46,299 bases of DNA from Serratia sp. UGAL515B_01 (lineage in GTDB: Bacteria > Pseudomonadota > Gammaproteobacteria > Enterobacterales > Enterobacteriaceae). The DNA is taken from NCBI RefSeq assembly GCF_033095805.1, contig NZ_CP109900.1:1-46299 (forward strand). Direction: 5' to 3'. Shown here one piece after another: positions 6,201-26,447 of this stretch (position 1 is its first letter; the number at the start of each line of letters is the position of its first letter). The translations under genes were made by a program, and so were the position numbers. Below the pieces are notes generated by a model that saw only the letters and a list, made by a program, of their open reading frames with translations, ran no database searches and was not told the DNA's origin.

Positions 6201-8299
6201 GTAAGACCACGCAATATCGTGTGATAGCCGCCGCTGTTGAACAGCTCGATAGCGGCGTTCAGATTAAGGGGTTGGCACCGACTCATCGGGCAGTCAGTGA
6301 ACTTCAGAGTGCAGGTATCCCCGCACAGACCATTGCCAGCTTTATCAGTGAACAATCGCAACGGCAGGTTACAGGGGAAGTGACGGACTTCACCCGGACA
6401 CTGTTTGTGGTTGATGAAGGTTCCATGCCGGGCAACCGTGATCTGTCCGAGGTAACGAATATCATTGCTACCGGGAATGGACGAGCCGTTTACAGCGGTG
6501 ACAGAAAGCAGTTAAAACCTTTGGAATCTGGTGCGCCTTTTTCATTGATACTGGATAGAAGCGCCGCTGATGTCGCGATTATGAAAGAAATCGTGAGGCA
6601 AACGCCTGAACTTAGGCCAGCGGTGGAAGCTATCATTGCTGGCGATGTAAACACGGCCATCGAACTGGCAGATAAAGTGGCACCTGGTGTTGTTCCGAGG
6701 GAACAGGATGCCTGGCTCCCGGAAAACAGTATCGTTGATCTGAAAGATAAGCAGCAGTCACCGGTCAGCCTGATAGCCGATGACTTTATTGGCCGCACAG
6801 CTGACGCGAGGGAAAAGACACTTATCGTTGCTGAACTGAATGCGGATCGTCGAAATATCAACAGTGCCATTCACGAACGGTTACAGGAAAGGGGCGTTTT
6901 GGGTGACAGTGTCACTGTCCAGCAGTTGGTCAGGATAAGTAACAGTATGGCTGATTTGGGGCATCAGGGTTTTTGGGAAAATAATGTCGGGAATGTTGTT
7001 CGAATTGGTGAAGAGTATCTGCAGGTTGCCGGAACTGATACCCGAAGCAGCCTGGTTGAATTGCAGGAGGATTCAGGCTCCAGTCGATGGCTTTCACCGT
7101 TGGAATTGCGTACATCGAATGTGGCCATATTTACACGGGAAGAGGTAGAAATATCGGTAGGGGATCGGTTACGTCTCACGTCAACAGACAGGGACAGGAT
7201 GCTGAAAACAAACGATCTGGCTGTCGTTACGGATGTGGATAGCAATGGGAAAGTAACCATAGAGTCTGATGGGCGACAAGTTACGTTAAACCCTAGACAG
7301 AACCCGGCAGATCAGCATTTTGATTACGGTTATGCGGTAACAACATACAGTTCACAGGGGGCGTCAATCGAGTATGTCATCGCCCTGGTGGGGACAGAGG
7401 GGGCCCGTCAGCGTATGGCAGCACTGGACAGTACCTATGTCGCGTTGTCTCGCGCTAAAGAGCATGTCCAGGTATACGCTGATGATCTCAAGGACTGGAT
7501 AGCGGAAGTGACCTCGGATACGGGGGAGCGACAAACCGTTCATGATGTCCTGTTACGTAATGATGATGTTAAGGCGTCACGTGAAGTGGCGTTGTGGGAA
7601 AGGAGTCATGCTGTCGCTGATACGCGGCTGAATGGCAAGGTCGATCAAACCCTGACTGAAGCAGCCCATTTTAGTGGCGGGAAGACACCAGAGCTGCTTT
7701 ACGCCGTTTTGAACGAGCATGGTAGACATCGCGGTAACTGGCATGTGCCGGTATCACCCACAACGGGGCGTCTGGATATTGATAGCGCGTACTATGAAGG
7801 TGCCCGCGATGGGTTGATGATTGTAGTTCAGCAAGGTGAGCAAGAGGGGAAACCTATGCAGGCGGCATCAATGGCGGAGGCTATTGTTATGATGACAGAA
7901 CATCCCGAACAGGCTGTGACTATTCTTCGTGTTGATGCTGCAGCTGTGGTTGATACAGCGAAACAGGACAATAGCGTAGATGCTGATACCGCTAACCTCA
8001 GTATGGAGACTCAACTGGAGCAAGAACGACTTAAAGAGCAGATTGCCAGTGAAAAAGAAGATGACAGCACTGATTTTCGCAGTGAACGTGAATCAGACGG
8101 TGGCGATATTGAAAGGGATGAAGAGAAACTGTTACGTGATACTGGTCGTGATATCGAGTTGGAAAATTACTATGCTGATGACGTTGAAGACCCTCGTAAT
8201 CGTGAAATGATGAATGATGAAATTAACATCATGCGCAAAGAACCCACCCCAGAGAATGAGCTGGAGTTGGTTAAAAATTTAGAGAAAACAATGGAATAA
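3224..8299 (+). CDS. traI: TraI relaxase-helicase (MOBF)
   Basis: This nicks oriT, stays bound to the 5' end and unwinds the strand being transferred. The 1691 aa protein is near F TraI (1756 aa). The relaxase tyrosines Y16, Y17, Y23 and Y24 and the metal-binding histidines H146, H157 and H159 fall at exactly the same residue numbers as in F. A decayed helicase-like region follows, then the active RecD-like helicase with Walker A GSAGVGKTT at 988-996 and Walker B VVDEGSM around 1062-1068, and a helical acidic C-terminus. It starts two bases after traD. The close match of the relaxase to F agrees with the F-like nic core predicted near 26154. Confidence 0.97.
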   Translation: MLSVSNVKSAAKGSVYYFEEDNYYFQGEQSTVWYGAGAESLGLEGAVDPATFKAVLEGKLPDGSDLTHMVGSENKHRPGYDLTFSAPKSVSILALVYGDQSVLEAHKWATEKALNEVEKLASTRKYSDGQTVYEQTGNLVIAQFLHDTNRNSEPHLHTHAVVANATLSGDGWKTLSSDTKNGRGFTDTVWNQQVSIGAIYRRYLRGKLEQDGHIIEEKGSRGEWDIVGIPVEPLSTRRKEILEQAGPDASEKSKSVAALDTRKEKDFSDIESVREGWRETMREAGFDHTTYEQARGERKGQLDSAYSMDSADTPKNGLSVVVDAAIEQVSRKSVRFTFDSVLTNVLNQIPVRDGVLEQAKQALDIAIEKGALIAVDKNQTLFTSAIHIRDEQRLSQLAGRMAERRSGLVAAVDARDITAKVADRDRGLTLIDARGGTDFQRDLLGKLVGLAEENNKTPVVIASTVKEKKALSSHTSTLVLTPEEVGEYAEKSRLPEKPVFIVSEAERINVPTLYGILQTADKADASTVVIDTHTRRTTGFASEVLRTAGVPVLTTTPGTEKGSLTLVQKDTVDDRMQVAARYVSQQKAAGFHVVAQAGNERTRGQLTREIRAALQENGLIGEKVTTVTALSQVWLDSDNRRLRSTYQPGMVLERTEGKEIHERFTITGVNKDSHTLRVTDQKGQNRGLRISSIDGDYRLFKPRELQLNEGEQVKSTGDINGKGRAGEILRVAGIQRGNWLFREKLILEKSDGKTVKVRTDQPLKLDYGYTEGLGASRNTEGHVVAVLSGREVTDSTVNLLRRSGENIIAFTPLDDAAITARLENERTSVSVTQGIKSLAGKDDLTQALRELQNNRLAPKERAVRLAIDQVVGKDVTFSSLQVINEAMKIDKSLAPDVASAELARLERRGEIVPLDGTQGRLGDYVQRENWQSEVSILRHILEGKNSVEPLMPDAAARLKDKMEGLTSGQQKAAQMILESSDRFTSIQGSAGVGKTTQYRVIAAAVEQLDSGVQIKGLAPTHRAVSELQSAGIPAQTIASFISEQSQRQVTGEVTDFTRTLFVVDEGSMPGNRDLSEVTNIIATGNGRAVYSGDRKQLKPLESGAPFSLILDRSAADVAIMKEIVRQTPELRPAVEAIIAGDVNTAIELADKVAPGVVPREQDAWLPENSIVDLKDKQQSPVSLIADDFIGRTADAREKTLIVAELNADRRNINSAIHERLQERGVLGDSVTVQQLVRISNSMADLGHQGFWENNVGNVVRIGEEYLQVAGTDTRSSLVELQEDSGSSRWLSPLELRTSNVAIFTREEVEISVGDRLRLTSTDRDRMLKTNDLAVVTDVDSNGKVTIESDGRQVTLNPRQNPADQHFDYGYAVTTYSSQGASIEYVIALVGTEGARQRMAALDSTYVALSRAKEHVQVYADDLKDWIAEVTSDTGERQTVHDVLLRNDDVKASREVALWERSHAVADTRLNGKVDQTLTEAAHFSGGKTPELLYAVLNEHGRHRGNWHVPVSPTTGRLDIDSAYYEGARDGLMIVVQQGEQEGKPMQAASMAEAIVMMTEHPEQAVTILRVDAAAVVDTAKQDNSVDADTANLSMETQLEQERLKEQIASEKEDDSTDFRSERESDGGDIERDEEKLLRDTGRDIELENYYADDVEDPRNREMMNDEINIMRKEPTPENELELVKNLEKTME

Positions 8300-8673
8300 A
8301 ATTTTCCTATTGCTCATGGAGAAAAAAATGTGTCAACGACCCTGCCGGTAATTCTGTGTAACTGCCCGCTTATTAAAGGTTCCCGTTTAGGCACCAGGAA
8401 AAATGTGCCAATTCATGGGTAGGGCACTTTTGGTAAGAAGCAGTAAAAAGTATCACTCCGTACATAATTTGCGATGCTATCGCCTTCGCTACGCTCAGTT
8501 GTTCAACGCAGAAAACGGGAAAAACAAGTTTTACCCGCTTTCTGCGTTACATATAAACAAAGATCTATGCGCCAACATGGATCACATCTTGATTAAAAGT
8601 TAAGTCGCTGATTTAAAAAAACTGTAGTATTCTCTGCATAACGATCCTTTTCAGATCCTTTGGGGAGGCCGAG
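8300..8673. other. Intergenic region between traI and copB
   Basis: There is no convincing gene in these 374 bp. The stretch holds a 44 bp near-perfect inverted repeat (listed separately) and, just upstream of copB, an AT-rich segment that should carry the copB promoter (a TAGTAT at 8625-8630 is a possible -10; no clear -35). F has traX and finO after traI; neither is here. A 66-codon frame at 8403-8603 was rejected because it runs through the inverted repeat. Confidence 0.6.
8505..8548. repeat. 44 bp near-perfect inverted repeat
   Basis: The arm 8505-8519 (AACGCAGAAAACGGG) pairs with 8534-8548 (CCCGCTTTCTGCGTT) with one mismatch, and the inner bases AAAAC (8521-8525) and GTTTT (8528-8532) pair again, leaving a two-base loop. 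It lies between the end of the transfer operon and the replicon. It could be a bidirectional transcription barrier or a protein-binding cruciform. Confidence 0.7.
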
Positions 8674-8925
8674 GTGTCGCAGATTGAAAATGCAGTGACT
8701 CCCGCACCGAAACGAGTCTACAGAAAGGGTAATCCCCTGTCTTCTGCTGAGAAGAAGAGATTATCTCTGCTAAGAAAGAAAAGTACTCACAAAGAGCTGA
8801 ATATCTTTATTCAGAACTCACATAAAGAAAATCTACAAAAACTTTGTGAAGAAACAGGAACAAGCCAGGCCCGTATGATTGAGTTGCTTATTGAGCGGGA
8901 AATGGCGAAAAAACCTAATTACTGA
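8674..8925 (+). CDS. copB: CopB/RepA2 repressor of repA transcription
   Basis: The small DNA-binding repressor of IncFII plasmids keeps the repA promoter quiet at normal copy number. The 83 aa product closely resembles the CopB of R1/R100: a start like MSQ-EN-AVT, the shared RKGNPLS-AEK-RLS block around residues 18-32, and a basic C-terminal ribbon-helix-helix-like part. The GTG start at 8674 has a strong GGGGAGG five bases upstream. An inverted repeat over the -35 of the next promoter (8942-8959) is a candidate operator. Confidence 0.9.
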   Translation: MSQIENAVTPAPKRVYRKGNPLSSAEKKRLSLLRKKSTHKELNIFIQNSHKENLQKLCEETGTSQARMIELLIEREMAKKPNY

Positions 8926-8941
8926 AAGGTGAATGAGTTAC

Positions 8942-8974
8942 GTTCTTGATCGTTAGAACAGCTAGTGCTAGATT
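8942..8974 (+). promoter_or_regulatory. Candidate repA promoter with CopB operator
   Basis: TTGATC (8946-8951) and TAGATT (8969-8974) are 17 bp apart, a fair sigma-70 pair. GTTCT (8942-8946) and AGAAC (8955-8959) form an inverted repeat over the -35. Its place between copB and the CopA/CopT region matches the repA promoter repressed by CopB in R1. Confidence 0.5.
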
Positions 8975-9054
8975 GCTGTCTGGTTGCTGAATTTTTGGTG
9001 GTCACGCCTAACAAGGTGACAGGAACTGGTTCTGATGAGGTGTCTACCCGGAAC

Positions 9055-9146
9055 CAGAAAAGCAAAAACCCCGATAATCTTCTCTACTTTGGCGAGTGTA
9101 AAGATTAACGGGGCTCACTTAAAACTGTATAGAAGCTGTTGCTCTA
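9055..9146 (-). ncRNA. copA: CopA antisense RNA (IncFII copy-number control)
   Basis: On the minus strand the sequence closely matches CopA of R1/R100. A long stem is made by CCCCGATAATCTT (9069-9081) and AAGATTAACGGGG (9101-9113) with one mismatch; its loop carries the TTTGGCGA target element, and on the minus strand the stem is followed by TTTTTGCTTTT, the usual terminator. CopA pairs with the repA leader (CopT), blocks tap translation and so blocks repA. The ends are approximate. Confidence 0.85.
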
Positions 9147-9164
9147 TGCAGGGAGTATAGTTTC

Positions 9165-9236
9165 ATGCTCAGAAAAGTTCAATACCTTCTGTGTTTACTC
9201 CTTCTGTGCAACATAAGCGCAGGAGTATTTGGTTAG
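9165..9236 (+). CDS. tap: Tap leader peptide that couples translation to repA
   Basis: This is a 23-codon frame, MLRKVQ... to ...AGVFG, of the same kind, size and place as Tap (RepA6) in R1, which starts MPGKVQ. A GGGAG lies upstream at 9151-9155. Its stop codon at 9234-9236 falls just inside repA, so ribosomes ending here can open and start repA. Its translation is what CopA controls. It is too short for usual gene finders. Confidence 0.85.
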   Translation: MLRKVQYLLCLLLLCNISAGVFG

Positions 9237-10323
9237 CCTCAACTACGCGACTGATGCACAGATAACCGAAACCCCACGTTCCCGGCGTGGTGAGGCCAAT
9301 GCCTTGCGCAAGGGGAAGTCCAAGATCCATCGTCGTTATCAGCCGGCGCTGACATGCAGCGTACCGCGAGGCATGGCGTCCAAGGTAGTCGCACGCATGA
9401 GTAGCCATAACTGGCACCGTAACGCCGATTTGATCGCGTTGCGGCAGCAGGGCTATATCCCTTACACACGCCGGAATGATAAGTCATTTGTCCCCAAACC
9501 GATGCGAGTGTCTGCTCGTTCCGAAAGCTGTGAAGCTCTGAATGCACTCTCTATGGCATTAGCCGCCAACTGCGACTACAACCCGGACAGCGACTACGCG
9601 TTTGAAATCATGGCTCCGTTTGAGCAAATAGCGGCAGCGATGGGATGTCTGCACGTCTATGATAACGGGCGTAAAGCCTATGACAGCCCACTCCATGCAC
9701 TCTCCGTCCAAGAGCAGTTGGATTACGTGATCGTGTTACGTGGTCAGGATACCGATTATGGGCAAAACAAACCGCTGCGCTTATGGCTGACGGAGAGGTT
9801 TTTCACGTCACGGGGGATTGCTGTCGACGAAATCCGCCAGTGGCTGGGACAGTTCCGGGCGTGGGCCATCCGTAACGGCCTTACGGAAAGCCTGCGTAAA
9901 AAGTACGAACGTCACCTGGTCAGGGTCGAACGCATTGGTATCGATCTGAAGGATAAACACTCGCTGCGTAACAGGCTGAAACAAATCAAACGCTGGGTAG
10001 TCAGCCCCGATCTGGCCAAGGAAAAACAAGCGAAGGTGGAGCAGCTGCAGGAGGGGCTCAACGAGCTCGAGAAGCAGAATAGTGAACGTCTGGATTGGGT
10101 CCTGGATGAAGCCCAGAAGAACCTGCACAGTCTGGCCAGGGCGAAACGTCAGCGTCAGAACCCGATGTACCAGGCGTTCGTCAAATGGTCTACCAGCAGT
10201 AACGTGATGCCGCATGAAGTCGTGTCTCTTGAGCAAGCTGTAAGCAAAGAACATCCAGGGCTGAGGAATCGTGATCCCGAAGTCTATTACCGGCTACTGC
10301 TGCAGCGAGCCGGCATAATTTAA
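9229..10323 (+). CDS. repA: RepA replication initiator
   Basis: This 364 aa basic protein starts the replication of the plasmid. The TTG at 9229 is chosen because it overlaps the tap stop codon and follows AGGAG (9221-9225); the next in-frame ATG would lose about 47 residues. The middle part (about residues 110-260: FEIMAPFEQIAAAMG..., LRLWLTERFF, then a KYERH-IGID-LRN-L block) has the look of the IncFII/IncI/IncL-M initiator superfamily. It is clearly longer than R1 RepA (about 285 aa) and I see no close alignment to that protein, although the control parts upstream are plainly IncFII-like. The family call is moderately sure, the role is sure from context. Confidence 0.85.
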   Translation: MVSLNYATDAQITETPRSRRGEANALRKGKSKIHRRYQPALTCSVPRGMASKVVARMSSHNWHRNADLIALRQQGYIPYTRRNDKSFVPKPMRVSARSESCEALNALSMALAANCDYNPDSDYAFEIMAPFEQIAAAMGCLHVYDNGRKAYDSPLHALSVQEQLDYVIVLRGQDTDYGQNKPLRLWLTERFFTSRGIAVDEIRQWLGQFRAWAIRNGLTESLRKKYERHLVRVERIGIDLKDKHSLRNRLKQIKRWVVSPDLAKEKQAKVEQLQEGLNELEKQNSERLDWVLDEAQKNLHSLARAKRQRQNPMYQAFVKWSTSSNVMPHEVVSLEQAVSKEHPGLRNRDPEVYYRLLLQRAGII

Positions 10324-10347
10324 CCCTTCCATTAAGCGATTTTTTTA

Positions 10348-10368
10348 CCGTGCCCAGGCGCGGTTTTT
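10348..10368 (+). terminator. Terminator after repA (CIS-like)
   Basis: CCGTGC (10348-10353) pairs with GCGCGG (10358-10363), followed by TTTTT. It ends the repA message 25 bp after the stop codon. In IncFII plasmids the CIS element between repA and oriR contains such a terminator, which loads RepA in cis. Confidence 0.65.
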
Positions 10369-10371
10369 GCG

Positions 10372-10596
10372 TTGGTCCGGATCACTGAATGATGGTTTTT
10401 CAACCACCGCAGACAGGTAATCAATGCCGGTATTGACGCGCCGGCGACGGTACAATGCCAAAAAGGTACCGAGAATTGTTTTTCCATGCAGTTAACTTCG
10501 AAGAAGAAAGTTAACTTCGAAATCTGATTGAATAGATTGGCTAATTTCGAACGTTACTCCTGAACAAAATAAGCCCTTTAAAAAGGGAGTGATTTC
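10372..10596. other. Presumed origin of replication (oriR), with direct repeats
   Basis: In IncFII plasmids oriR lies just downstream of repA and the CIS terminator, so the origin is expected here. The segment turns from GC-rich to AT-rich at about 10470. It has GTTAACTTCGAA twice (10491-10502 and 10510-10521) and a weaker copy (CTAATTTCGAA, 10541-10551). I see no consensus TTATCCACA DnaA box here, unlike R1. The call rests on position and on the repeats. Confidence 0.45.
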
Positions 10597-10851
10597 GTGC
10601 CGGCTAACGCCAGGCACTCGAAAGCACCTCTCTCACTGCGTTCGAGCAAAAATCGCATCAGCAACAATGCCAATAATCACCGGCTACGCCGAAAAGTTGC
10701 TCCCTGCGCTCCGCTTAGGGCAGTAAAGCTACATTTTAACAATACAGACGCCATCGCCCCTTCAAATGCCGACTGCAGCTACAGCATCACCCTGACCCAT
10801 TGCAAAGCCGCCGCCGCCCCGGCCAACGGCCGGGAACAGCAGTGGCTTTAA
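10597..10851 (+). CDS. Doubtful RepA4-like small ORF
   Basis: A GTG-initiated frame of 84 codons lies about 270 bp past repA, where IncFII plasmids carry the ill-defined repA4 frame. Composition (rich in N, A, S, R) is unremarkable and no motif is seen; the upstream AAAGGGAG (10577-10584) is rather far from the GTG. It may be non-coding origin-region DNA that stays open by chance. Confidence 0.25.
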   Translation: MPANARHSKAPLSLRSSKNRISNNANNHRLRRKVAPCAPLRAVKLHFNNTDAIAPSNADCSYSITLTHCKAAAAPANGREQQWL

Positions 10852-11870
10852 AATGAGTGTTGTAACTAAAGTTCTCAGTCGCGACAGGAAATGTTGCTGA
10901 AGCTTTTGATTACACGCTCGTAAGCGGCCCTAACGGCCCGCTAACGCGGAGATACGCCACGCCTAAGGCGTGACCACTCCGACCGCGCACAATAGCTATA
11001 TCATGGTGTTAAGCAGGTCTGGCTTTACAGGGTAACGGATGGGATTGGTGAAACCTATCAAACCGGAACCGGCTTCGCCGGGCTACCGGCGACAATAAAC
11101 AACAGTGTTCTCTGATAGAACATTTGTCGCCTGCATGCGCTATGCGCATCATTGTGGCTGATAAATCTCATCGCAACGGCACGTTGCGAACTAAAATTCA
11201 GTGTTGCTGAAAGTACGCTAAAAGATTGGCCTGGCAGGAGGGGAGCATATCCGGTTGGCCATGCGCCGGTGTGTCATGATGTCGTCATCAGAAATGACGG
11301 TGACGTCAACCAGGGGAAAATCATGACTGTAGAGTTGTCGCGCCAGTTCAGGTTCAGTGGTCTGAAGCCCAACCGTACGAAAACGTACTATAAGGGGTCA
11401 GTTTGGAGATCGGGCATTTTTGTACGTTAGGAGCATTATTCAACCAACTTCGGCAGGTAACTGATTGATTTAGTGTCTTATGCTATAGCTTTTAAGTTAT
11501 CACCTTTGACATATCGCATTTAGGTTATGGCGTTAATCAAAATCAACGCCGAACGCCGTATGGCACGGGAGTACACCCTATCGCGATAGGTAAGCCTGTT
11601 CAAAAAACATGCCTACCGTACAATAATTCTCTATATGGGGTTCCAAGCCGGAACCCTAGATTTTTCTGCGGCCAGTAATGGCAGGGGTTGTCACACAAAC
11701 GACCGGTTGAGTGACAATCATTAATCGACGATTTTGATGCTAAATGTTGTCACATAACCCGTTATTTATTCAACGTCATACAAATCAGGCAACCTTTAGC
11801 TTTGGTGACGGAATTTTCTGGGATTCCGGCGGAGAACCCCTAAAGCAGATAAAAATACGTCAATTATATA
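10852..11870. other. Gene-poor, hairpin-rich region between replicon and leading region
   Basis: About 1 kb without a convincing gene. It has several hairpins: CACGCC/GGCGTG (10958-10972), the 14 bp palindrome CCTATCGCGATAGG (11577-11590), GGCGTT/AACGCC (11529-11550), and an imperfect repeat of about 12 bp arms at 11588-11617. TTGTCACA occurs twice, near 11689 and 11748. A 92-codon frame at 11152-11430 looks like chance; a few codons near 11150-11200 (ADK-S-RNG) faintly recall a transposase, too little to call. Confidence 0.5.
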
Positions 11871-11891
11871 AAGGGCTTCGGCCCTTTTTTT
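11871..11891 (+). terminator. Strong rho-independent terminator
   Basis: AAGGGC-TTCG-GCCCTT followed by a run of T is a stable UUCG tetraloop terminator. It isolates the gene at 12004 and its promoter-leader from anything upstream. Confidence 0.85.
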
Positions 11892-11913
11892 GTTATTGGC
11901 TGGAAATAAAAAC

Positions 11914-12003
11914 TTGTTAACTACTTTAATAAGTAGTATATTATTCATGTAGCAACGACGAAGTAAATAAAAATCACAACGCCCAAACGGGCAGGGGTTA
12001 AAA
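11914..12003 (+). promoter_or_regulatory. Promoter-leader, copy 1 of a duplicated element
   Basis: This has TTGTTAA, then the inverted repeat CTACTT-TAAT-AAGTAG, TATATTA, an ATGTAG, and just before the start codon a GCCC-AAAC-GGGC hairpin followed by AGGGGTTAAAA. The same order and nearly the same bases occur at 13673-13747. The hairpin sits directly in front of the ribosome site, so it may control translation; the first inverted repeat covers the space between -35 and -10. Confidence 0.6.
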
Positions 12004-12519
12004 ATGAATATTCAAGAAGCATTAAATGTATTCGGATTATCTGGCGAGTTGACAGAAAAAGATATCAAGAAAGCATATAAACGTTTAGCAATAAAATATC
12101 ACCCTGATAAAAATCCATTAGGCGGTGAGTTGATGAAAGCAGTTAACGCAGCTTTTGATTTTATTATGGCTAACTTTGAAAAGGTGAATCAGTACCAATC
12201 TACTGATAAGAACGCCCATTATAATTACGGTGAAGAGCTGGAAAATGTATTAAAAGCTCTTTCTGGATTATTGGGTGTGATTTATGAGGTTATTGGTAAT
12301 TGGGTTTGGATCAGCGGCGATACTCGTGAGCATAAAGAAACCCTGAAAGAAATGGGGTGCAAATGGGCGGCAAAGAAAAAACAGTGGTTCTACCGCCCAG
12401 AGGAACACAAAAGCAGTTATAACCGCCGGGAGCATTCAATCGATGAAATCCGCGAGATGTACGGTACAGCAGGACAACGAAAAGCAGCCGGATATAAGTC
12501 TGTAGAACGTCAAGCCTGA
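12004..12519 (+). CDS. J-domain (DnaJ-like) leading-region protein
   Basis: The 171 aa protein has an N-terminal J domain (about residues 3-60) with the HPD motif (YHPDKNP, about residues 37-43) that stimulates DnaK ATPase. There is no G/F or zinc-finger region. The C-terminal part (about 90-140) carries a W-x-W...GDTREHK...LKE-GCKW--KKKQWFYRP block, which I remember as common in short plasmid J-domain proteins but cannot assign. It is preceded by the duplicated promoter-leader and followed by a hairpin at 12525-12544. The likely work is recruiting host DnaK to a plasmid process after entry; the target is unknown. Confidence 0.85.
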   Translation: MNIQEALNVFGLSGELTEKDIKKAYKRLAIKYHPDKNPLGGELMKAVNAAFDFIMANFEKVNQYQSTDKNAHYNYGEELENVLKALSGLLGVIYEVIGNWVWISGDTREHKETLKEMGCKWAAKKKQWFYRPEEHKSSYNRREHSIDEIREMYGTAGQRKAAGYKSVERQA

Positions 12520-12524
12520 TTAGT

Positions 12525-12545
12525 AAGGCGGGGAAACCCGCCTTT
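12525..12545 (+). terminator. Hairpin after the J-domain gene
   Basis: AAGGCGGG (12525-12532) pairs perfectly with CCCGCCTT (12537-12544), loop GAAA, then a short TTT ending at 12545. It is probably a terminator or attenuator between this gene and the next one at 12569. Confidence 0.65.
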
Positions 12546-12568
12546 ACCACTTATGCGGATAAATAAAA

Positions 12569-13114
12569 ATGTTAAATTTCAAAGAGCAATATACAGAGTT
12601 ATTCAACGTTGTTTGCCAGTTCCTGGGTGATGGATGGCGTATTAGTCAGCTAGATAATGATTATGGTCATAGGATAAAATTAACCTCTTCACTGTATAAA
12701 AATTACAGTATTATTGCCAGGATTGAAAAAGGCCGTATTAATTTATTTGGCAGCGTTGATAGCAAGTATTTCCGTGGCGGATATCATTCCTGTAGTGTTT
12801 CATCAAAACGGGAGCCGTGGGCGATTGCGAATGATATAAGAAAGAAAATCCTGTTTGATGCGGCTGAACAAATCCATCTTGCAGATGTAGCACGGAAGAG
12901 TCAGGAGGAACAGAACGACGAAATCCTTATCCTTAAAGGGTTACTGTCGCGACTGGTGACGCTTGAACACTACTATGGGGCATTATGTGGGTTTAAGCAT
13001 GAAAAAGTGTCTGGGGCTATAGAACAGCGCTACAATGGGAACTACACCCTGAAAATAGACAGCCTGGACAAAGACACCTTGATCCGGGTTGTCGGTTTTT
13101 TGAGTACTCTATGA
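12569..13114 (+). CDS. Leading-region protein of unknown function
   Basis: I do not recognise this 181 aa soluble protein. It has a mixed alpha/beta look, with a hydrophobic, aromatic N-terminal half and a helical segment around residues 90-130 (AAEQIHLADVARKSQEEQ...). The ribosome site is weak. It lies on the plus strand between two hairpins (12525-12545 and 13123-13153), in line with the other small leading-region genes, so it may be made in the recipient just after transfer. Confidence 0.65.
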   Translation: MLNFKEQYTELFNVVCQFLGDGWRISQLDNDYGHRIKLTSSLYKNYSIIARIEKGRINLFGSVDSKYFRGGYHSCSVSSKREPWAIANDIRKKILFDAAEQIHLADVARKSQEEQNDEILILKGLLSRLVTLEHYYGALCGFKHEKVSGAIEQRYNGNYTLKIDSLDKDTLIRVVGFLSTL

Positions 13115-13122
13115 ATCTAAAT

Positions 13123-13153
13123 CAGCTTATCACTCCCTTGGTCTGGTAAGCTG
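13123..13153 (+). terminator. Hairpin between two leading-region genes
   Basis: CAGCTTA (13123-13129) pairs with TAAGCTG (13147-13153), with further partial pairing inside; a TTTG follows. It is one of a series of hairpins that separate the small genes here. Confidence 0.45.
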
Positions 13154-13179
13154 TTTGAGACACTCAAGCAGGTAACTAT

Positions 13180-13449
13180 ATGAACCAGTGCTATTATGAC
13201 AGAATAAGCAAGGGAAACCGGACATACCGGTTGACGGTATTTAAAGAGGATAACGATTATCGTTTACTCTTTGAACAATTTGAAAAAACTCCTTCAACTG
13301 AAGAGGGAAAAAAATACTCAAAGAAAAAAACCTTTGAGCAGGTCATTTTTTTTGAAAATCTTCAGGATGTTAATATATCTATGTTGCCACTGCGACCGTT
13401 AGCAATACGATTCATTGAAAAATTACAGGAATTAAAATATGCACTTTGA
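13180..13449 (+). CDS. Small protein of unknown function, overlaps an HTH gene
   Basis: The 89 aa protein is basic and not recognised; it seems rich in beta strands at the start (YYDRISKGNRTYRLTVF). AGGTAA is just upstream. Its last 11 bases overlap the HTH gene at 13439, so the two are likely translationally coupled. The small-partner-plus-HTH layout recalls toxin-antitoxin or inhibitor-regulator pairs, but no toxin family is visible. Confidence 0.6.
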   Translation: MNQCYYDRISKGNRTYRLTVFKEDNDYRLLFEQFEKTPSTEEGKKYSKKKTFEQVIFFENLQDVNISMLPLRPLAIRFIEKLQELKYAL

Positions 13450-13663
13450 TAAAAGCATGATCACACCTGAAAAGTTAAAGGAATTACGTGATCAGCTTGG
13501 TTATTCAAATCATGAAATGGCCCAAGTGCTAGGTATTAGTGATCAAACATGGCTGAATAAAATCAGTGCAAAAAGTAACAGTGGGAAAATATCAAAACTA
13601 GAATATGAGTTTTTACTTTTGCTTGTAAATCAGCACCCAAAATACAAAATAAAAAAAATGTGA
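13439..13663 (+). CDS. XRE-type HTH regulator, small
   Basis: The 74 aa protein is almost only a helix-turn-helix: LKELRDQLGYSNHEMAQVLG followed by a TWLNKI-like recognition helix, about residues 11-45. It overlaps the end of the gene at 13180 and has AGGA at 13427-13430, eight bases before the ATG. An inner ATG at 13457 is possible. It probably regulates its own operon or the neighbouring leading-region genes; the second copy of the duplicated promoter begins 10 bp after it. Confidence 0.7.
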   Translation: MHFDKSMITPEKLKELRDQLGYSNHEMAQVLGISDQTWLNKISAKSNSGKISKLEYEFLLLLVNQHPKYKIKKM

Positions 13664-13672
13664 ATTATTTTC

Positions 13673-13747
13673 TTGATAAATACTTAAATAAGTAGTAAAT
13701 TAAGAATGTAGTCAAACAACAACGCCCAAACGGGCAGGAGTTAAAAA
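13673..13747 (+). promoter_or_regulatory. Promoter-leader, copy 2 of a duplicated element
   Basis: This copy has TTGATAAATACTTAAATAAG with its inverted repeat TACTT-AAAT-AAGTA, then AATTAAGAATGTAG, and the same GCCC-AAAC-GGGC hairpin followed by AGGAGTTAAAAA. It differs from copy 1 (11914-12003) mainly by a shorter middle. It drives the gene at 13748. Confidence 0.6.
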
Positions 13748-14077
13748 ATGAAAACGTTAAAATCCGCAGCAATACAATTTCTCGTTGATGTTAGGTCTAA
13801 TCGTTGCATGAAACTATCATATCGTGATGCAATAGAAGGTCTTGGCCTCAATCAAAAAAACAGAATTACGCGTTGTTATCATAAGAGAGATAGCAGAAAA
13901 ACAATAGCTGAATTAACGGAGTTGATATCTAGTTTATTGGAGTATGTTGTAATTCTCCATAGTCGTGATGGGTATAATGTTCGCACGGTATTTAATCATG
14001 AGGATGATGCTTTGAATTTATTTCGTAATTATGTGATGAATGGGAAAAAAGTTTCATTGGTTGTGGAGTCTGAATAA
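13748..14077 (+). CDS. Leading-region protein of unknown function
   Basis: A 109 aa basic protein, not recognised. The first 50 residues could form helices with an HTH-like spacing (YRDAIEGLGLNQKNRITRCY), the rest is mixed. It has a good AGGAG site inside the duplicated leader and is followed by a perfect hairpin at 14097-14126. Sharing the leader with the J-domain gene suggests that the two are expressed together, perhaps early after entry. Confidence 0.65.
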   Translation: MKTLKSAAIQFLVDVRSNRCMKLSYRDAIEGLGLNQKNRITRCYHKRDSRKTIAELTELISSLLEYVVILHSRDGYNVRTVFNHEDDALNLFRNYVMNGKKVSLVVESE

Positions 14078-14096
14078 GAAATAACGTTTAAAAGGG

Positions 14097-14126
14097 GGTA
14101 TCAGGTTGCAGGAACAACCTGATACC
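14097..14126 (+). terminator. Perfect 12 bp stem-loop between leading-region genes
   Basis: GGTATCAGGTTG (14097-14108) pairs perfectly with CAACCTGATACC (14115-14126); loop CAGGAA. There is no T run right after it, so it may act as an RNA-stability or attenuation element rather than a plain terminator. Confidence 0.55.
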
Positions 14127-14161
14127 TATGACAGTAAAAAAACCACTGTGAGGTCAATTTA

Positions 14162-14605
14162 ATGTCAATGGAACGGATAGTAGCAATAGCGGATAGGCTT
14201 GTAAAGGGGCAGTCAACCACAATTCCGGCCATGAAACCGGCTCAATGGGATGAGTTACGTTGGTGGATTAATTATCACCAGGAGGTTGGGAGGAAACCCA
14301 GTAAAAAAATGAATTATATGATTAATATATCCCCATCAATGGCTGATAATTTAGAGACTTTAATATGTTCACTCTTCACTATTCATCGTAAATATTTTGA
14401 TGAATTTGAAAATATTTCAATAATTAGATTTGTATTAAAATCTGGTGACGAAATTAAATTCTTTTTTCACGAAGTTAATAAATTTAATTGTGTTTACTAC
14501 CGGTTACAAGCCAGTGGGGCATGGTTCACTTTTAACAGTATTCGGTTAGGTAATTGCATTAGCGAAGTGGAAAAAAATAGCCGGATGATAGAGACATTAA
14601 ATTAA
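14162..14605 (+). CDS. Leading-region protein of unknown function
   Basis: The 147 aa product is not recognised. It begins with a helical, MSMERIVAIADRLV-like segment and has a WDELRWWINYHQEVGRKPSKK stretch around residues 28-48, then an alternating hydrophobic part. GAGGT lies upstream. Its stop codon overlaps the next frame, which begins at 14605 or 14617, so the two genes form a pair. AT content is high. Confidence 0.6.
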   Translation: MSMERIVAIADRLVKGQSTTIPAMKPAQWDELRWWINYHQEVGRKPSKKMNYMINISPSMADNLETLICSLFTIHRKYFDEFENISIIRFVLKSGDEIKFFFHEVNKFNCVYYRLQASGAWFTFNSIRLGNCISEVEKNSRMIETLN

Positions 14606-14616
14606 TGGAGTCAGTA

Positions 14617-14820
14617 ATGAAAAATTTAACTGAGAATGCCAAGAAATTTTTAGCTAAAAAACCGTTATTGATTGGGGTGGTTATGGGGTATAAATTTTAT
14701 GAACACCCAGAACTAGGCGATGAAACCGACCTAAAGGTACTTACACTAGATGGCAGGCTCGTTTCATCAGGCTATTATGATTTACCTTCTACACATGAAA
14801 TGATGGGAATATCATTTTAG
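14617..14820 (+). CDS. Small protein of unknown function
   Basis: The 67 aa product is not recognised. The ATG at 14617 is preferred because GGAG lies at 14607-14610; an ATG at 14605, overlapping the previous stop, would add four residues. It has a basic start (MKNLTENAKKFLAKKP), then a short beta-like part. A clear terminator follows at 14828-14860. Confidence 0.55.
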   Translation: MKNLTENAKKFLAKKPLLIGVVMGYKFYEHPELGDETDLKVLTLDGRLVSSGYYDLPSTHEMMGISF

Positions 14821-14827
14821 CTTATCA

Positions 14828-14860
14828 GGTGTTCCAGGTCGAAGAACTGGAACACCATTT
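14828..14860 (+). terminator. Rho-independent terminator
   Basis: GGTGTTCCAG (14828-14837) pairs perfectly with CTGGAACACC (14847-14856), followed by ATTTT. It ends the 14162-14820 gene pair. Confidence 0.75.
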
Positions 14861-14885
14861 TAAGATGAAAAGCATAAATAAATGA

Positions 14886-14912
14886 TTAAAAGTGCAAAAA
14901 CTGCACTTTTAA
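14886..14912. promoter_or_regulatory. Palindromic operator of the HTH gene (AAAAGTG family)
   Basis: TTAAAAGTGCA (14886-14896) and TGCACTTTTAA (14902-14912) are perfect 11 bp arms around AAAAC. The site is directly in front of the HTH gene at 14955. Related palindromes stand in front of the HTH genes at 22975-23160 and 24409-24750. Confidence 0.7.
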
Positions 14913-14954
14913 TGATATATTTTTTCTATGATGATGACAAAGGGGCGGGAGTCA

Positions 14955-15185
14955 ATGACAGGGTTTGAGTTACGTTTGTGGCGACGTGGGTTAGATTGGA
15001 CGCAAGAACGCGCAGCTGAAGAACTTGGGGTGTCATTGAGAACCTACAAAAGTTACGAAAATAAGGCCCCAAAAAAAACTGCGATCATTGCCGCCCAGGC
15101 ATTAGCCGTTCGTGAATTGTTGGCGTCAAATTTAGACGTAAACGCGCAGTATTTAAGGATGAAAATGGTAATACAGTTAGGTTAG
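14955..15185 (+). CDS. XRE-type HTH regulator, paralogue of 22975-23160
   Basis: The 76 aa protein has an HTH at about residues 5-35 (LWRRGLDWTQERAAEELGVS then LRTYKSYE). Its first 35 residues are nearly the same as those of the minus-strand gene at 22975-23160, including MTGFELRLWRRGL. The ATG at 14955 is chosen because of this shared start and the GGGAG before it; ATGs at 14928-14934 are possible. The palindrome at 14886-14912 is the likely operator, so it probably represses itself and may cross-talk with its paralogue. Confidence 0.8.
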   Translation: MTGFELRLWRRGLDWTQERAAEELGVSLRTYKSYENKAPKKTAIIAAQALAVRELLASNLDVNAQYLRMKMVIQLG

Positions 15186-15198
15186 TTAAGGAGTAAAG

Positions 15199-15276
15199 AT
15201 GAATTTTAAAAAAGAAAATGCAACCATTTTAGGATTAGGATTTAACGTAAGAAAACCTAATATGAGGTGTTTATGA
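15199..15276 (+). CDS. 25-codon micro-ORF coupled to the next gene
   Basis: AAGGAG at 15188-15193 stands five bases before ATG 15199. The 25 aa frame (MNFKKEN... to ...PNMRCL) ends in TGA at 15274-15276, overlapping the ATG at 15273 as ATGA. The good ribosome site and the exact overlap suggest a translated leader that couples to the gene at 15273. No function is known. Confidence 0.45.
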   Translation: MNFKKENATILGLGFNVRKPNMRCL

Positions 15277-15536
15277 GTTTTATTAGTTATGTTGAATATA
15301 AAGATGTAATGCCAGATGGCTTGCAGTTTGATAATTTACTCACAAAGGATTTGGAGTTTGGTTGTTTATTTTACCGGGTTTATGAAAACCGTCTACTGCG
15401 TGAAGAAGATGATGGTTCAGTTATTGATATAGCTTATGTGGGTAATCTGTATGTTTACAATAATGATAAAGAGTATAGAGCCTACATTATGAAATTCGAT
15501 GAGAGTGGGAACTTACAGGCCGTAAATGTTGCATAA
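15273..15536 (+). CDS. Small acidic protein of unknown function
   Basis: An 87 aa acidic product, rich in Y, D and E, not recognised. A small acidic leading-region protein could be a DNA mimic, as ArdA and other anti-restriction proteins are, but no such family is visible, so this is only a thought. It starts at an ATGA overlap with the micro-ORF at 15199-15276 and has GAGG upstream. A membrane protein follows at 15553. Confidence 0.6.
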   Translation: MSFISYVEYKDVMPDGLQFDNLLTKDLEFGCLFYRVYENRLLREEDDGSVIDIAYVGNLYVYNNDKEYRAYIMKFDESGNLQAVNVA

Positions 15537-15552
15537 ATAAAGGATGGTTAAT

Positions 15553-16011
15553 ATGTTGAAAAAGAATCATAGTATTAATGAAATATTATTAATTGCTGGC
15601 GGTGCTTTTTTTATTTATTTAATAGCTCCTGCACTCGGAATTGGGGCAGGCATACTAATGTCTTTATGGATGAATGGAAAAGAATTATTATCTCCGTGGG
15701 CAGTGGGAGTTAATGTCACCGCTGTTATAATTTATGTTTTTTGTTATTTAACGTCGGAAAATAAAGTAAAATTAAAATCGTCTATAACATTAATAATCGT
15801 TGGCATCATTTTCTTGCCATTGCAAGCGGGAACGTATGATTATTTTATAGCTGAAGCTCCTACAATAAATGTTCAAAACAATCTTTTAAATGCATCAACT
15901 GAACAGTTATCAGCGTTAGCTTACGGTTTTATACGTTATGTTAGTATTGGTACTGGAGTCTTATCTATATTATATTCGGTTGGGTCAATATTTGAAAAAA
16001 GTAGCAGTTAG
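15553..16011 (+). CDS. Membrane protein of unknown function, about four segments
   Basis: The 152 aa product has about four hydrophobic segments: near residues 10-33, 41-62, 70-90 and 120-145. AAAGG lies about ten bases before the ATG at 15553; a nearer ATG at 15544 is too close to that site. No family is recognised. It closes the plus-strand block; a perfect inverted repeat follows at 16034-16063. Confidence 0.65.
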   Translation: MLKKNHSINEILLIAGGAFFIYLIAPALGIGAGILMSLWMNGKELLSPWAVGVNVTAVIIYVFCYLTSENKVKLKSSITLIIVGIIFLPLQAGTYDYFIAEAPTINVQNNLLNASTEQLSALAYGFIRYVSIGTGVLSILYSVGSIFEKSSS

Positions 16012-16033
16012 GATGACATGGGTGGTAATTAAC

Positions 16034-16063
16034 GGTCATGTAATACAATCGTATTACATGACC
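16034..16063. terminator. Perfect 13 bp inverted repeat between convergent genes
   Basis: GGTCATGTAATAC (16034-16046) and GTATTACATGACC (16051-16063) are perfect arms around AATC. It lies between the plus-strand gene ending at 16011 and the minus-strand gene ending at 16074, so a bidirectional end-of-message hairpin is likely, though there is no clear T run on either side. Confidence 0.55.
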
Positions 16064-16073
16064 TCTGCCCCGG

Positions 16074-16514
16074 TTAAAGGGCCTTCCTTCTTTGCGCTGC
16101 TGCATCGGCAATGGCCAGAAATTCCTGCTGTAAAAACTTATCCGTTGGTCGGTTGTTTTTCACATACTCGTTGGTATTCAGCCAGGTTCGAATAACATCA
16201 AGGTCAGAAGCCAGGTTATCAAGATCCCGTTTCCCCCATTTCGCTACCTTTGTAACATACCAGGCCGCAGAATGATCCGGCCCTGCTTCATGTTTTTCCA
16301 TATCTTTATAAATTTCATAGCTCTTGCCCTTGAAAGTCAGTTCCTTTTCACCCTGGACATCCTGAATATGAATGTCTAGCCCTAACGCTTTTCGCATGTA
16401 TATCGTCAGGACTTCACAGGGTTCAATATCCGTGGCGGGATAAGGAAAATATTCAATCATGCTGAGGCGTACCATCACGTAAAGATCTGCCGCTTTAAAC
16501 AGTGAGTTTTCCAT
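16074..16514 (-). CDS. Protein of unknown function
   Basis: The 146 aa soluble protein is not recognised. It looks mostly helical, with a charged C-terminus (FLAIADAAAQRRKAL). AAAGGA lies about nine bases before the ATG at 16514. It is the only minus-strand gene between 11 and 17 kb and is read away from the phosphoribosyltransferase gene at 16695. Confidence 0.65.
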   Translation of the reverse strand: MENSLFKAADLYVMVRLSMIEYFPYPATDIEPCEVLTIYMRKALGLDIHIQDVQGEKELTFKGKSYEIYKDMEKHEAGPDHSAAWYVTKVAKWGKRDLDNLASDLDVIRTWLNTNEYVKNNRPTDKFLQQEFLAIADAAAQRRKAL

Positions 16515-16577
16515 TCATTTCGTTCCTTTCTAACGGGGGTGTGCTTCATCTTACCGGATCGGGGCGCGTTTTGCCGA

Positions 16578-16605
16578 GTTCGGTTTTACAGGTATAAGAC
16601 CGAAC
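16578..16605. repeat. TTCGGT/ACCGAA palindromic element, copy 1
   Basis: GTTCGGT (16578-16584) and ACCGAAC (16599-16605) flank TTTTACAGG..., and ACACCCTT follows. Similar elements lie at 17909-17936 and 18791-18816, so the PRTase/SLOG pair and the toxin-antitoxin each sit between two copies. Confidence 0.55.
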
Positions 16606-16694
16606 ACCCTTCGCAATCCCTAAGGATTTCTTTATGAATATTCCGAGTGAGCGTATCTTTGTTCACATCTTGTAACGATGTGAAGGAGCATACG

Positions 16695-17282
16695 ATGAAC
16701 GTGAATTTAAAAGAAATAGCGTGTAACTGTAACTGGAACAAAGGTGTCGTTCTCGACAAACACAGTAAGTGCAGCGTTGTGATAGGACAGAACGAGTACG
16801 GGCATAACGTTTATGACACCATCCGAACGGACGTGGGTGAGGCTTTATTTCAGCTTAAATACCGTTCGGACTGGAATCAGGTTCAGCCGCTGGCCCAGTG
16901 CCTTTATGATAACGTCTATCGCCTCTTTGATAATGTCGGGTTCATCGTTCCTATGGCCGCGTCTAACGTCCGGGCGCGTCAACCCGTAACCGAAGTGGCC
17001 CAGGCGCTGGCGCAGTTAGCCGGTGTTCCCTGTTGCACGACTATGTTGCTCAAGGCTGCTGGCGGCGTATCGCTCAAGAATCTCAATACCAAAGAGGAAA
17101 AAGTTGCTGCCATTGCTGACAGCTTTTCCTGTGAAGAGATTATCAAGAATGAGGGGCGGTGGAATGTTTTAGTGATTGATGACCTCTATCACACAGGCGC
17201 ATCAATGGAGGCTGCATGTGCGGCGCTACGCGGCTATAATAAAATTAATAATATCTACGTTGCGGCGCTAACCTGGAGATAA
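16695..17282 (+). CDS. Phosphoribosyltransferase-like protein (ComF-like)
   Basis: The 195 aa protein has the PRPP-binding signature VIDDLYHTGAS at residues 160-170 (two acidic residues, then a T-G loop), typical of type I phosphoribosyltransferases, and a cysteine-bearing N-terminus (CNCNW) recalling ComF-type proteins. PRTases join a base to PRPP or split the product; the substrate here is unknown. AAGGAG lies six bases before the ATG. It is followed two bases later by a SLOG-like gene, which suggests the two work together on a nucleotide. Confidence 0.8.
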   Translation: MNVNLKEIACNCNWNKGVVLDKHSKCSVVIGQNEYGHNVYDTIRTDVGEALFQLKYRSDWNQVQPLAQCLYDNVYRLFDNVGFIVPMAASNVRARQPVTEVAQALAQLAGVPCCTTMLLKAAGGVSLKNLNTKEEKVAAIADSFSCEEIIKNEGRWNVLVIDDLYHTGASMEAACAALRGYNKINNIYVAALTWR

Positions 17283-17284
17283 TC

Positions 17285-17842
17285 ATGACGACGACAGTTT
17301 TCGTTGCTGGTTCAATAACCATCAAGAAACTCGATCCGCTTATCGTTGAGCGGTTAAAGAAAATTGTTGGTAAGAACTTTGATGTTGTTGTCGGTGACGC
17401 GTCTGGCGTTGATTCCTCCGTACAGCTGGAACTTAAACAATTGGGTTACAGTGCCGCAACGGTGTTTACCAGTGATCCCAAACCCCGACACAATTTCGGT
17501 GCGTGGCCCGTGCAGCTCGTTAAATCAGACTATCGGCCCGGTAGCCGTGAGTTCTACACAGCCAAAGATATTAAGATGGCAGAAGCAGCAGACTATGGCC
17601 TTATGGTCTGGGATACAAAAAGTCCGGGCACGTTAAGCAACGTCATTGAGCTGCTTTCGAAAAAGAAAAAATCAGCTGTTTTCATCAATAAGACAAGAGA
17701 GTTTGTGCTTATCAAAAAAACCAAAGATATTGATAAGCTGATTAGCTTCATGTCGCCATCATCCCTTGAAAAAGTTGAAGAGAAGATAAAACTGTCCGAA
17801 AGGCTGGCGCAGCTGAATAATGAGCAGATGGCTCTAATCTGA
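17285..17842 (+). CDS. SLOG/DprA-LOG-like nucleotide-binding protein
   Basis: The 185 aa protein opens with VFVAGS and then has VVVGDASGVDSSVQ at about residues 36-49, a Rossmann-like start plus a GD-x-x-G-D loop as in SLOG proteins (the DprA/LOG superfamily), which bind or cut nucleotides. An acidic AAD-Y-LM-WD-KSPGT segment follows near residues 100-120, also common in that group. It is two bases after the PRTase gene and ends before a strong terminator (17875-17892). Pairs of PRTase and SLOG-type genes have been proposed as nucleotide-based conflict or signalling modules. The exact family is not sure. Confidence 0.6.
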   Translation: MTTTVFVAGSITIKKLDPLIVERLKKIVGKNFDVVVGDASGVDSSVQLELKQLGYSAATVFTSDPKPRHNFGAWPVQLVKSDYRPGSREFYTAKDIKMAEAADYGLMVWDTKSPGTLSNVIELLSKKKKSAVFINKTREFVLIKKTKDIDKLISFMSPSSLEKVEEKIKLSERLAQLNNEQMALI

Positions 17843-17874
17843 CGTGAAGATCTTCTTTGCTGTAGTCAAAGCAG

Positions 17875-17892
17875 CCGCCAAGCGGTTTTTTT
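17875..17892 (+). terminator. Terminator of the PRTase-SLOG operon
   Basis: CCGC-CAA-GCGG followed by TTTTTTT, 33 bp after the stop codon. It is a compact rho-independent terminator. Confidence 0.75.
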
Positions 17893-17908
17893 ACGCCCGT
17901 CTCCGGGC

Positions 17909-17936
17909 ATTCGGTAAAACGTCCAGTTTACCGAAT
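17909..17936. repeat. TTCGGT/ACCGAA palindromic element, copy 2
   Basis: ATTCGGTAAA (17909-17918) and TTTACCGAAT (17927-17936) are perfect 10 bp arms around ACGTCCAG, followed by ACCTTAAAAA. It lies between the PRTase-SLOG operon and the toxin-antitoxin pair. Confidence 0.6.
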
Positions 17937-17951
17937 ACCTTAAAAAAGACA

Positions 17952-17976: not shown

Positions 17977-17983
17977 TTGAGCA

Positions 17984-18322: not shown

Positions 18323-18336
18323 TCAATACCTCACTA

Positions 18337-26240: not shown

Positions 26241-26410
26241 GAGTAACCCGTTAACAACCAGTAAGTTACTAAAAGGTGTCTCATAAGTAACCTTCGAGTG
26301 CTTTCATATATATCATGTAGTTAAGTTTGATTATTCTTTTGTGGTTACTCGATGGTTACTTGATTGATGCTAGTAAGTTACTCATAAAGGTGGTGTGTAA
26401 GTGAGTACCA
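26241..26410. promoter_or_regulatory. Repeats between nic and traM (probable TraM/TraY sites)
   Basis: AGTAAGTTACT occurs at 26260-26270 and 26372-26382. Half-sites GTTACT or AGTAAC occur at about 26242, 26285, 26343 and 26354. In F, binding sites for IHF, TraY and TraM fill the same space between nic and traM, and TraM binds repeats and represses its own promoter. Which protein binds here is inference. Confidence 0.6.
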
Positions 26411-26447
26411 TTGATGGTTGCTAATAAATCAGAGGAAAATAGAGAAA

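Follow-up and report, generated by a model that had tools for sequence, protein, structure and literature searches.

The window analysed here, the whole stretch of 46,299 bases that makes up the complete contig 1 of Serratia sp. UGAL515B_01, contains two short leaders, each consisting of a promoter, a putative operator and a 5' untranslated region (5'UTR). Leader 1 precedes a gene for a J-domain protein and leader 2 a gene for a 109-aa protein, and between them lie genes for a 181-aa protein, an 89-aa protein and a 74-aa Xre-like helix-turn-helix (HTH) protein (Table 1). A TACTT/AAGTA dyad occupies the 17-bp spacer of both promoters.

Table 1. Positions of the leaders, of the genes associated with them and of the putative transfer origin in the window.
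Feature	Position	Strand	Description
Terminator-like hairpin	11870..11887	+	just 5' of leader 1
Leader 1	11914..12003	+	promoter-operator-5'UTR of J-domain gene
Promoter, leader 1	11914..11942	+	sigma-70-like, TTGTTA-17-TATATT
O1, leader 1	11920..11937	.	dyad ACTACTT-TAAT-AAGTAGT, putative Xre operator
5'UTR segment, leader 1	11943-11980		without the first fold seen in relatives
Hairpin H2, leader 1	11981..11992	+	GCCC-AAAC-GGGC, adjoins Shine-Dalgarno AGGGG
J-domain protein	12004..12519	+	171 aa; HPD motif present (KYHPDK); PF00226, E 1.2e-10
181-aa protein	12569..13114	+	kept in module; confident predicted fold (pLDDT 93)
89-aa protein	13180..13449	+	poorly conserved; frame overlaps xre by 11 nt
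Xre-like HTH protein (xre)	13439..13663	+	74 aa; proposed repressor of both leaders
Leader 2	13673..13747	+	promoter-operator-5'UTR of 109-aa gene
Promoter, leader 2	13673..13701	+	sigma-70-like, TTGATA-17-TAAATT
O2, leader 2	13681..13694	.	dyad TACTTA-aa-TAAGTA, putative Xre operator
5'UTR segment, leader 2	13702-13723		without the first fold seen in relatives
Hairpin H2, leader 2	13724..13735	+	GCCC-AAAC-GGGC, adjoins Shine-Dalgarno AGGAG
109-aa protein	13748..14077	+	leader 2 gene; 38-39% identical to IncX4-plasmid protein (in IncX4 not directly behind leader)
Putative oriT interval	26285..26417	.	between SLT gene (25586-26284, -) and traM (26418-26870, +); placed from the gene order shared with F

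A preliminary description of this DNA had proposed that two otherwise unrelated genes share a duplicated promoter-leader, and both parts of this proposal were confirmed. In the repeat search, positions 11913-11952 paired with 13672-13711 at 83% identity (a 40-nt block) and positions 11971-12004 with 13714-13747 at 91% (a 34-nt block that includes the hairpin and the ribosome-binding site, RBS). The combined pattern TTGWTAANTACTTNAATAAGTAGTAWATTA, with at most 3 mismatches allowed, gave two matches in the window as against 0/100 shuffles, and a further occurrence of the full pattern was not found in the window. Taken singly, the short pieces of the leader are unremarkable: the hairpin-RBS pattern alone (at most 3 mismatches) reached two matches in 21/100 shuffles, both real matches being exact, and the dyad alone with 3 mismatches was at chance level (16 found vs 15.3 expected). 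The exact hairpin-RBS had no further copy elsewhere in the window's genome. Between -35 and -10 (29 nt) the two leaders are 86% identical. In the 40 nt upstream identity falls to 25%, which is the level expected by chance, and the repeated unit therefore starts at the -35 box. Thus, what is repeated is a promoter, an operator and a 5'UTR, with no larger duplication.

The gene xre is the last one behind leader 1, the genes are closely spaced with no plus-strand terminator-like site between them, and xre may be co-transcribed with them from leader 1. The Xre protein matches the Pfam family PF20432 "Antitoxin Xre-like HTH" (28 bits vs a cut-off of 25.8). For the model of the 181-aa protein no match in the PDB was found at E<=0.001 (best 0.03). 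The predicted structure of the 109-aa protein was poor (pLDDT 50), and Pfam (E<=0.1), NCBIfam and PADLOC (E<=0.01) listed no match to it. The preliminary description had suggested the genes of this kind as candidates for anti-defence, and the lack of a family match speaks neither for nor against such a role. When compared with the proteins of the window, the J-domain proteins of relatives were 66-81% identical within Enterobacterales (lowest 64% in one comparison), the Xre proteins 27-62%, and the proteins of the 89-aa position 19-30%, the lowest conservation among the aligned proteins.

The search for the leader in other plasmids, named as a check in the preliminary description, was made at both the DNA and the protein level. 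Direct DNA search with leader 1 gave 16 weak matches in plasmids (E about 3, limit 10), of which six (H32-H37), all to the hairpin end, led to plasmids with a J-domain gene. The protein search with the J-domain protein returned 2677 plasmid records, 2313 of them matching over at least 80% of the length, and 21 loci, picked for diversity and not randomly, were read. The order J-domain, 181-aa, small open reading frame (ORF), xre was found in 16/21 loci, and a leader with a perfect dyad stood before the J-domain gene and again after xre in 16/21 (not all of them the same loci as those with this gene order); in one of these 16, the IncI2b locus L018, the first leader stands before genes other than a J-domain gene. 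Among the remaining loci, the Glaesserella plasmid L015 and pOXA-48 (L019) have duplicated leaders of a different make, a single leader was found in L016 and in L001, whose stretch does not extend as far as xre, and no leader was seen in the two upstream stretches read for L017. Relatives of the module were located on IncX1-5, IncI2 and IncU plasmids, on a MOBP plasmid typed as IncFIC, and in Proteus, Erwinia, Buttiauxella and Xenorhabdus, and the genes behind the second leader belong to several unrelated families across plasmids. Out of 52 further loci outside this sample, 20 were read for leaders (13 from Enterobacterales, L103, from the opposite end of the contig that holds L063, and six others). 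Six of the 13 Enterobacterales loci (L055, L059, L060, L063/L103, L064 and L067) had a second leader whose dyad arms differed by 0-2 bases, with three leader copies each in L060 and L064; in three (L056, L062 and L066) the second leader was degenerate and in L057 no leader was found. The six loci that are not from Enterobacterales (L068, L070, L071, L073, L074 and L076) did not have this leader. An order-wide profile search for Xre gave matches in 31/394 genomes including the window's own, most of them weak and to part of the profile, and of these loci L026 and L027, both in the BLAST set, were analysed further.

In the Glaesserella plasmid L015 the 125-nt leader of the J-domain gene (4376-4500) is repeated without change before a gene further along (6683-6807); this leader is quite different in sequence and has no GC hairpin-RBS. 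On the Serratia ureilytica contig L066 the leader motif AYATCAARCGATGT occurs four times in 3612-4896, and the 5.5 kb that follow the J-domain gene gave no profile match to Xre.

Dyads placed in the 17-bp spacer of a promoter generally serve as repressor sites. The dyad was centred within 1.5 nt of mid-spacer in 30/34 leaders from 17 loci, and for the remaining four, all from IncX5, the script chose another promoter and by eye the dyad also lies in the spacer. The dyads are alike within a plasmid and different between plasmid types. The window has CTACTT-WAAT-AAGTAG; IncX1, 2, 3 and 5, Erwinia pyri and Mixta have ACCATCAT/ATGATGGT; IncX4 and the IncFIC-typed plasmid ACGAC/GTCGT; the two IncI2 types TACATC/GATGTA and AGGTCA/TGACCT; IncU ACCGCA/TGCGGT; Proteus and Providencia AGTACC/GGTACT; a Klebsiella plasmid and Pantoea and Serratia contigs CACGTTA/TAACGTG; and Buttiauxella CGCTCA/TGAGCG.

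The distances between Xre proteins and those between operators were compared using Mantel tests and were correlated (rho = 0.70, P = 1e-4, n = 19), and this held when one plasmid per Xre type was used (rho = 0.62, P = 5e-4 for 10 types; rho = 0.67, P = 2e-4 for 11 types). With the J-domain protein as control the correlation with operator distance was 0.13 (P = 0.09, n = 19) and -0.08 (P = 0.68, 10 Xre types). Left out of these tests were near duplicates (L013, L021, L023), L061 (one leader, with the same dyad as L059 and L060), loci with no perfect dyad (L062, L066), no Xre found (L058, L065) or no leader (L057), L063/L103 (where xre was found only later), L001 (xre outside the stretch), L015 and L017; L018 and L019, which have no J-domain gene in the stretch, entered only a 21-row test. 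The Pantoea plasmid L063/L103 could therefore serve as a small blind check: its operator is of the AGGTCA/TGACCT type, the same as in IncI2b, and among 18 Xre proteins that of L103 was nearest to the one of IncI2b (54/69 identical; next 44/71). The dyads thus appear to behave as regulator-specific operators, a putative role deduced from sequence comparison.

The second conserved part of the leader is the hairpin H2, which in all 34 leaders is a GC hairpin directly 5' of the Shine-Dalgarno sequence, its stem being 4 bp and its loop 4 to 6 nt long. All 8/8 distinct arm pairs were fully paired (one via G-T), compared with 9/56 when arms were swapped between types, a comparison biased towards pairing by the picking of the best stem. 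True compensatory changes were present (GCCC/GGGC, GTCC/GGAC, GGCC/GGCC, GCCG/CGGC and ACCC/GGGT). Nearer to the 5' end 32/34 leaders have another stable fold (-7 kcal/mol or lower in a 40-nt segment) and the two window leaders are those without it; in window leader 2, which is shorter, the segment taken for this fold starts inside the operator. The leader hairpins would probably act as a stabiliser of the mRNA and as a guard of the ribosome site.

The window carries an F-type transfer region, with TraD at 1131, TraM at 26418 and TraA at 29248. A CopA-like RNA, as in IncFII-type replicons, was the sole Rfam match over 8-30 kb, ParM/StbB lie at 21489/22450, and no tRNA was found. In F the SLT gene on the minus strand is followed by traM and the window has the same order. 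The oriT of F is located between these two genes, and from this synteny the oriT of the window can be placed between 26285 and 26417, near 26.3 kb. As judged by SLT/traM synteny only, the genes at 12-15 kb are on the leading side of this putative oriT and point towards it, and the entering strand would therefore be their template. The preliminary description, which had the incoming strand as template of these plus-strand genes, is borne out to this extent.

Taken together, these results are most readily explained by an establishment regulon that is autorepressed by Xre and undergoes zygotic induction in repressor-free recipients, and we consider this explanation, based on sequence comparison, to be the probable one. 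One promoter element precedes at least two unrelated operons, and a regulator gene behind leader 1 together with a second promoter that has the same site suggests an autorepressed regulon. The two leaders would be copies of one repressible promoter cassette, and the regulon would comprise xre, the three genes that precede it behind leader 1 (those for the J-domain, 181-aa and 89-aa proteins) and, behind leader 2, the gene for the 109-aa protein. The 74-aa Xre would bind the spacer dyad of both promoters and block RNA polymerase, keeping both promoters low in an established host. A recipient would receive the DNA without the repressor, and once double-stranded the promoters would fire unrepressed; the transcripts would carry the hairpin next to the Shine-Dalgarno sequence, and Xre made from the same operon would then shut the promoters. 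Expression soon after entry is therefore plausible, and would come about through loss of repression. As to what the proteins would do, a replication gene was found within about 3 kb of the J-domain gene in 14/18 read loci with that gene (exceptions L008, L012, L014 and L015), and because of this proximity our guess is that the J-domain protein brings in DnaK of the host, which would then remodel the initiator of replication.

Several observations weigh against this explanation. The arms of the dyad are 6 bp long in leader 2 and 7 bp in leader 1, and the former dyad is thus the weaker one. Promoter-like matches are present inside the operon (24 in 11700-15300 on both strands vs 11.9 expected), and xre may therefore have its own promoter. 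Only one leader copy was found in L016 and, among the out-of-sample loci, in L058, L061 and L065, and in some loci (pOXA-48, L062, L066) the leader has no perfect dyad. With regard to the co-variation, the correlation between Xre and operators was not significant at the level of five coarse Xre types (rho = 0.25, P = 0.25), the distances of Xre and J-domain proteins are themselves weakly correlated (0.25, P = 0.04), the J-domain proteins vary less than Xre and give the control a narrower range, and the operators were picked by eye from listings. Moreover, an Xre antitoxin would likewise autoregulate through a promoter dyad.

This last point leads to the alternative that survives best, namely that the 89-aa protein and Xre form a type II toxin-antitoxin module whose antitoxin operators are the dyads, the other genes being hitch-hikers. 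In HigBA or MqsRA the toxin comes first and the Xre antitoxin second. The overlap of the 89-aa and xre frames and the name of the Pfam family matched by Xre fit such a pair, as do MqsA among the closest solved structures and a weak match to TIGR03830. In pOXA-48 (IncL) orf20 can be deleted only with orf20 in trans, recipients without it yield few transconjugants, which are elongated and halted in division, and orf19 is dispensable (PMC12365149), which would fit a toxin-antitoxin pair. The pOXA-48 phenotype is the experimental result that comes closest to supporting the regulon; it is indirect support and not proof, since it would also fit an antitoxin. However, 0/14 proteins of the 89-aa position credibly matched a toxin family of Pfam or NCBIfam (a novel toxin type could escape this comparison), the protein in this position is the least conserved one in the alignments and the same operator also precedes unrelated genes. 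We therefore regard a toxin-antitoxin module as unlikely.

The preliminary description had further suggested that the promoter folds in single-stranded DNA like Frpo of F, such that the entering strand (T-strand) would fold at the leaders, rebuild the -35/-10 duplex and be transcribed before second-strand synthesis. According to published descriptions, the folded strand of Frpo must rebuild both -35 and -10 (PMC9849209, PMC11541004). The leaders are oriented correctly towards the putative oriT, the dyads fold in single strands and reach the -10 box in both IncI2 types, L007, L013 and IncU, and the Frpo elements are likewise duplicated in F (self-match 8071-8622 / 13459-14012). In the window, however, neither box is duplexed with its complement except for the edge of the -10, the dyad being within the spacer instead, and the T-strand folds are short local hairpins and no long stem. 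Using DNA parameters, T-strand folds of the window leaders had z of -1.0 to -2.9 (148-330 nt) and those of F Frpo1 and Frpo2 -4.4 to -6.2 (330-479 nt, longer than the window stretches), and the bases paired more than 60 nt away were 0% in both window leaders (200 nt) vs 41-46% in Frpo1/2 (330 nt). For 16 leaders from 14 loci z was -1.8 to -4.3, as expected of dyads and hairpins; in two of them, one IncX4 and one IncI2, about a quarter of the bases were paired long-range and a weak single-strand fold may be present. BLASTN of the two F Frpo regions (and not of other ssi sequences) gave no match to the window at E<1. Furthermore, the dyad sequence follows the Xre protein, which is unexpected from a folding requirement. 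The suggestion is therefore not supported and a Frpo-like single-stranded promoter was rejected as very improbable. The weakest alternative, that a strong promoter was duplicated or gene-converted and the leaders are alike by descent only with no shared regulation, would agree with the second copies in L005, L007 and L008, which are nearly identical across the 125-160 nt read, but is hardly credible given that in the window the promoter-operator is 86% identical and the similarity of the flanks is down to chance level, that in IncX1-3 pairs the dyad is kept and the flanks differ (by eye) and that the dyads change in step with Xre.

Some other features of the region were noted. Downstream of the 109-aa gene, at 14097-14126, a 12-bp hairpin (GGTATCAGGTTG-N6-CAACCTGATACC) lies 5' of an ORF at 14162; it recurs in 14/35 other loci searched, where the ATCAGGTTG core does not vary and the outer arms change in a compensatory way (GGT/ACC or GTG/CAC). 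The first ~40 aa of ORF 14162 match the loci of 12 relatives, nine of which have the hairpin, and the remainder does not match. A second HTH gene at 14928-15185 (region 14885-15185) has a strong dyad of its own, AAAAGTGC...GCACTTTT, just upstream, and its homologue was absent at E<=1e-3 from the relatives' loci compared. The stretch 16579-17935 is flanked by TTCGGT...ACCGAAC repeats (with another at 18790) and both of its genes share 92-93% identity with plasmids of Serratia and Pantoea, closer than the other matches listed for 1-20000, and it is possibly a recently moved module. In 19988-21204 the palindrome GTATAACGTTATAC occurs five times around a ParA/MipZ-like gene (20001-20840) and is perhaps its partition site or operator.

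In a wider reading, which we put forward tentatively and would not yet bet on, the establishment regulon would be common to conjugative plasmids (IncX1-5, IncI2, IncU, IncL/M, F-like and others) and built like phage immunity: the short Xre and the dyad would diversify jointly into many specificity types while the targets stay conserved, so that the entry genes still fire in cells that hold a relative of another type, and the leader would be a portable cassette that recruits new unrelated genes into the entry programme. If true, the entry regulon of these plasmids would be defined and its code could be read, the operator type denoting the regulon, there would be a direct hypothesis for the indispensability of pOXA-48 Orf20, and the leader would be a marker for finding hitherto unrecognised establishment genes.

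With respect to known systems, neither dnaJ nor xre was found mentioned in the main text of the papers on IncX4 PixR and IncX3 VirBR. In pOXA-48, orf20, recognised in L019 by the gene order nuc-orf19-orf20, appears to be a relative. Orf20 is XRE-like and encoded by the second gene of its operon, and a similar leader layout of spacer motif, GC hairpin and RBS stands before orf19 and before a second gene. It differs in length (159 vs 74 aa, with 33% identity over the matched part), the leader dyad is imperfect and no J-domain gene is annotated in the 10 kb examined. The Frpo/ssi elements of F and ColIb-P9 are likewise a duplicated non-coding promoter of a leading region whose genes have the T-strand for template (PMC9849209, PMC11541004), but F Frpo is described as a 328-bp stem-loop (PMC8744291), whereas the window leaders have 75-90 nt, local hairpins and an operator-like dyad. 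Similar to the Aca anti-CRISPR-associated repressors, which are small HTH repressors within their own repressed operon with a burst on entry (as described in PMC8708921), the window has a small HTH protein in its operon, and Aca3 is among the PDB sequence relatives (E 4.9e-5); the Aca systems belong to phages, whereas the window operon type is found on conjugative plasmids and its element serves at least two promoters.

The nearest parallels in organization are two plasmid regulons. In the ArdK/CUP system of pKM101 (IncN) and the ArdK regulon of R388 (IncW), repeated promoter elements precede establishment and maintenance genes, and a single plasmid-encoded autoregulated repressor acts on strong promoters that overshoot on entry (PMC6289460, PMC9723621, PMC3937220, where Delver and Belogurov 1997 is cited); such an overshoot of the autorepressed circuit has been shown for the R388 promoters (PMC3937220) and is described for p576 (PMC8708921). 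Unlike the window with its 74-aa Xre and spacer dyad, those repressors are of the ArdK/KorA family and act on direct repeats partly over the -35, and some ArdK targets are known anti-restriction genes, whereas the window targets have no assigned function. The regulator of the window matches the Xre-like PF20432 and is not identified as an ArdK homologue, a statement based on this match and not on a direct comparison with ArdK. In Reg-p576/EGeRS2 of the pLS20-family plasmids, conserved upstream operators precede several variable genes under an autoregulated repressor, and expression is transient since the repressor is not transferred (PMC8708921), as is proposed for the window; this system differs in its Gram-positive host, its ribbon-helix-helix repressor and its operators of repeated heptamers beside the promoter. 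The leaders and Xre of the window would thus probably belong with repressor-controlled establishment regulons, as ArdK/CUP and Reg-p576 do, as a system that is a member of neither ArdK/CUP nor Frpo and has a regulator and an operator of its own.

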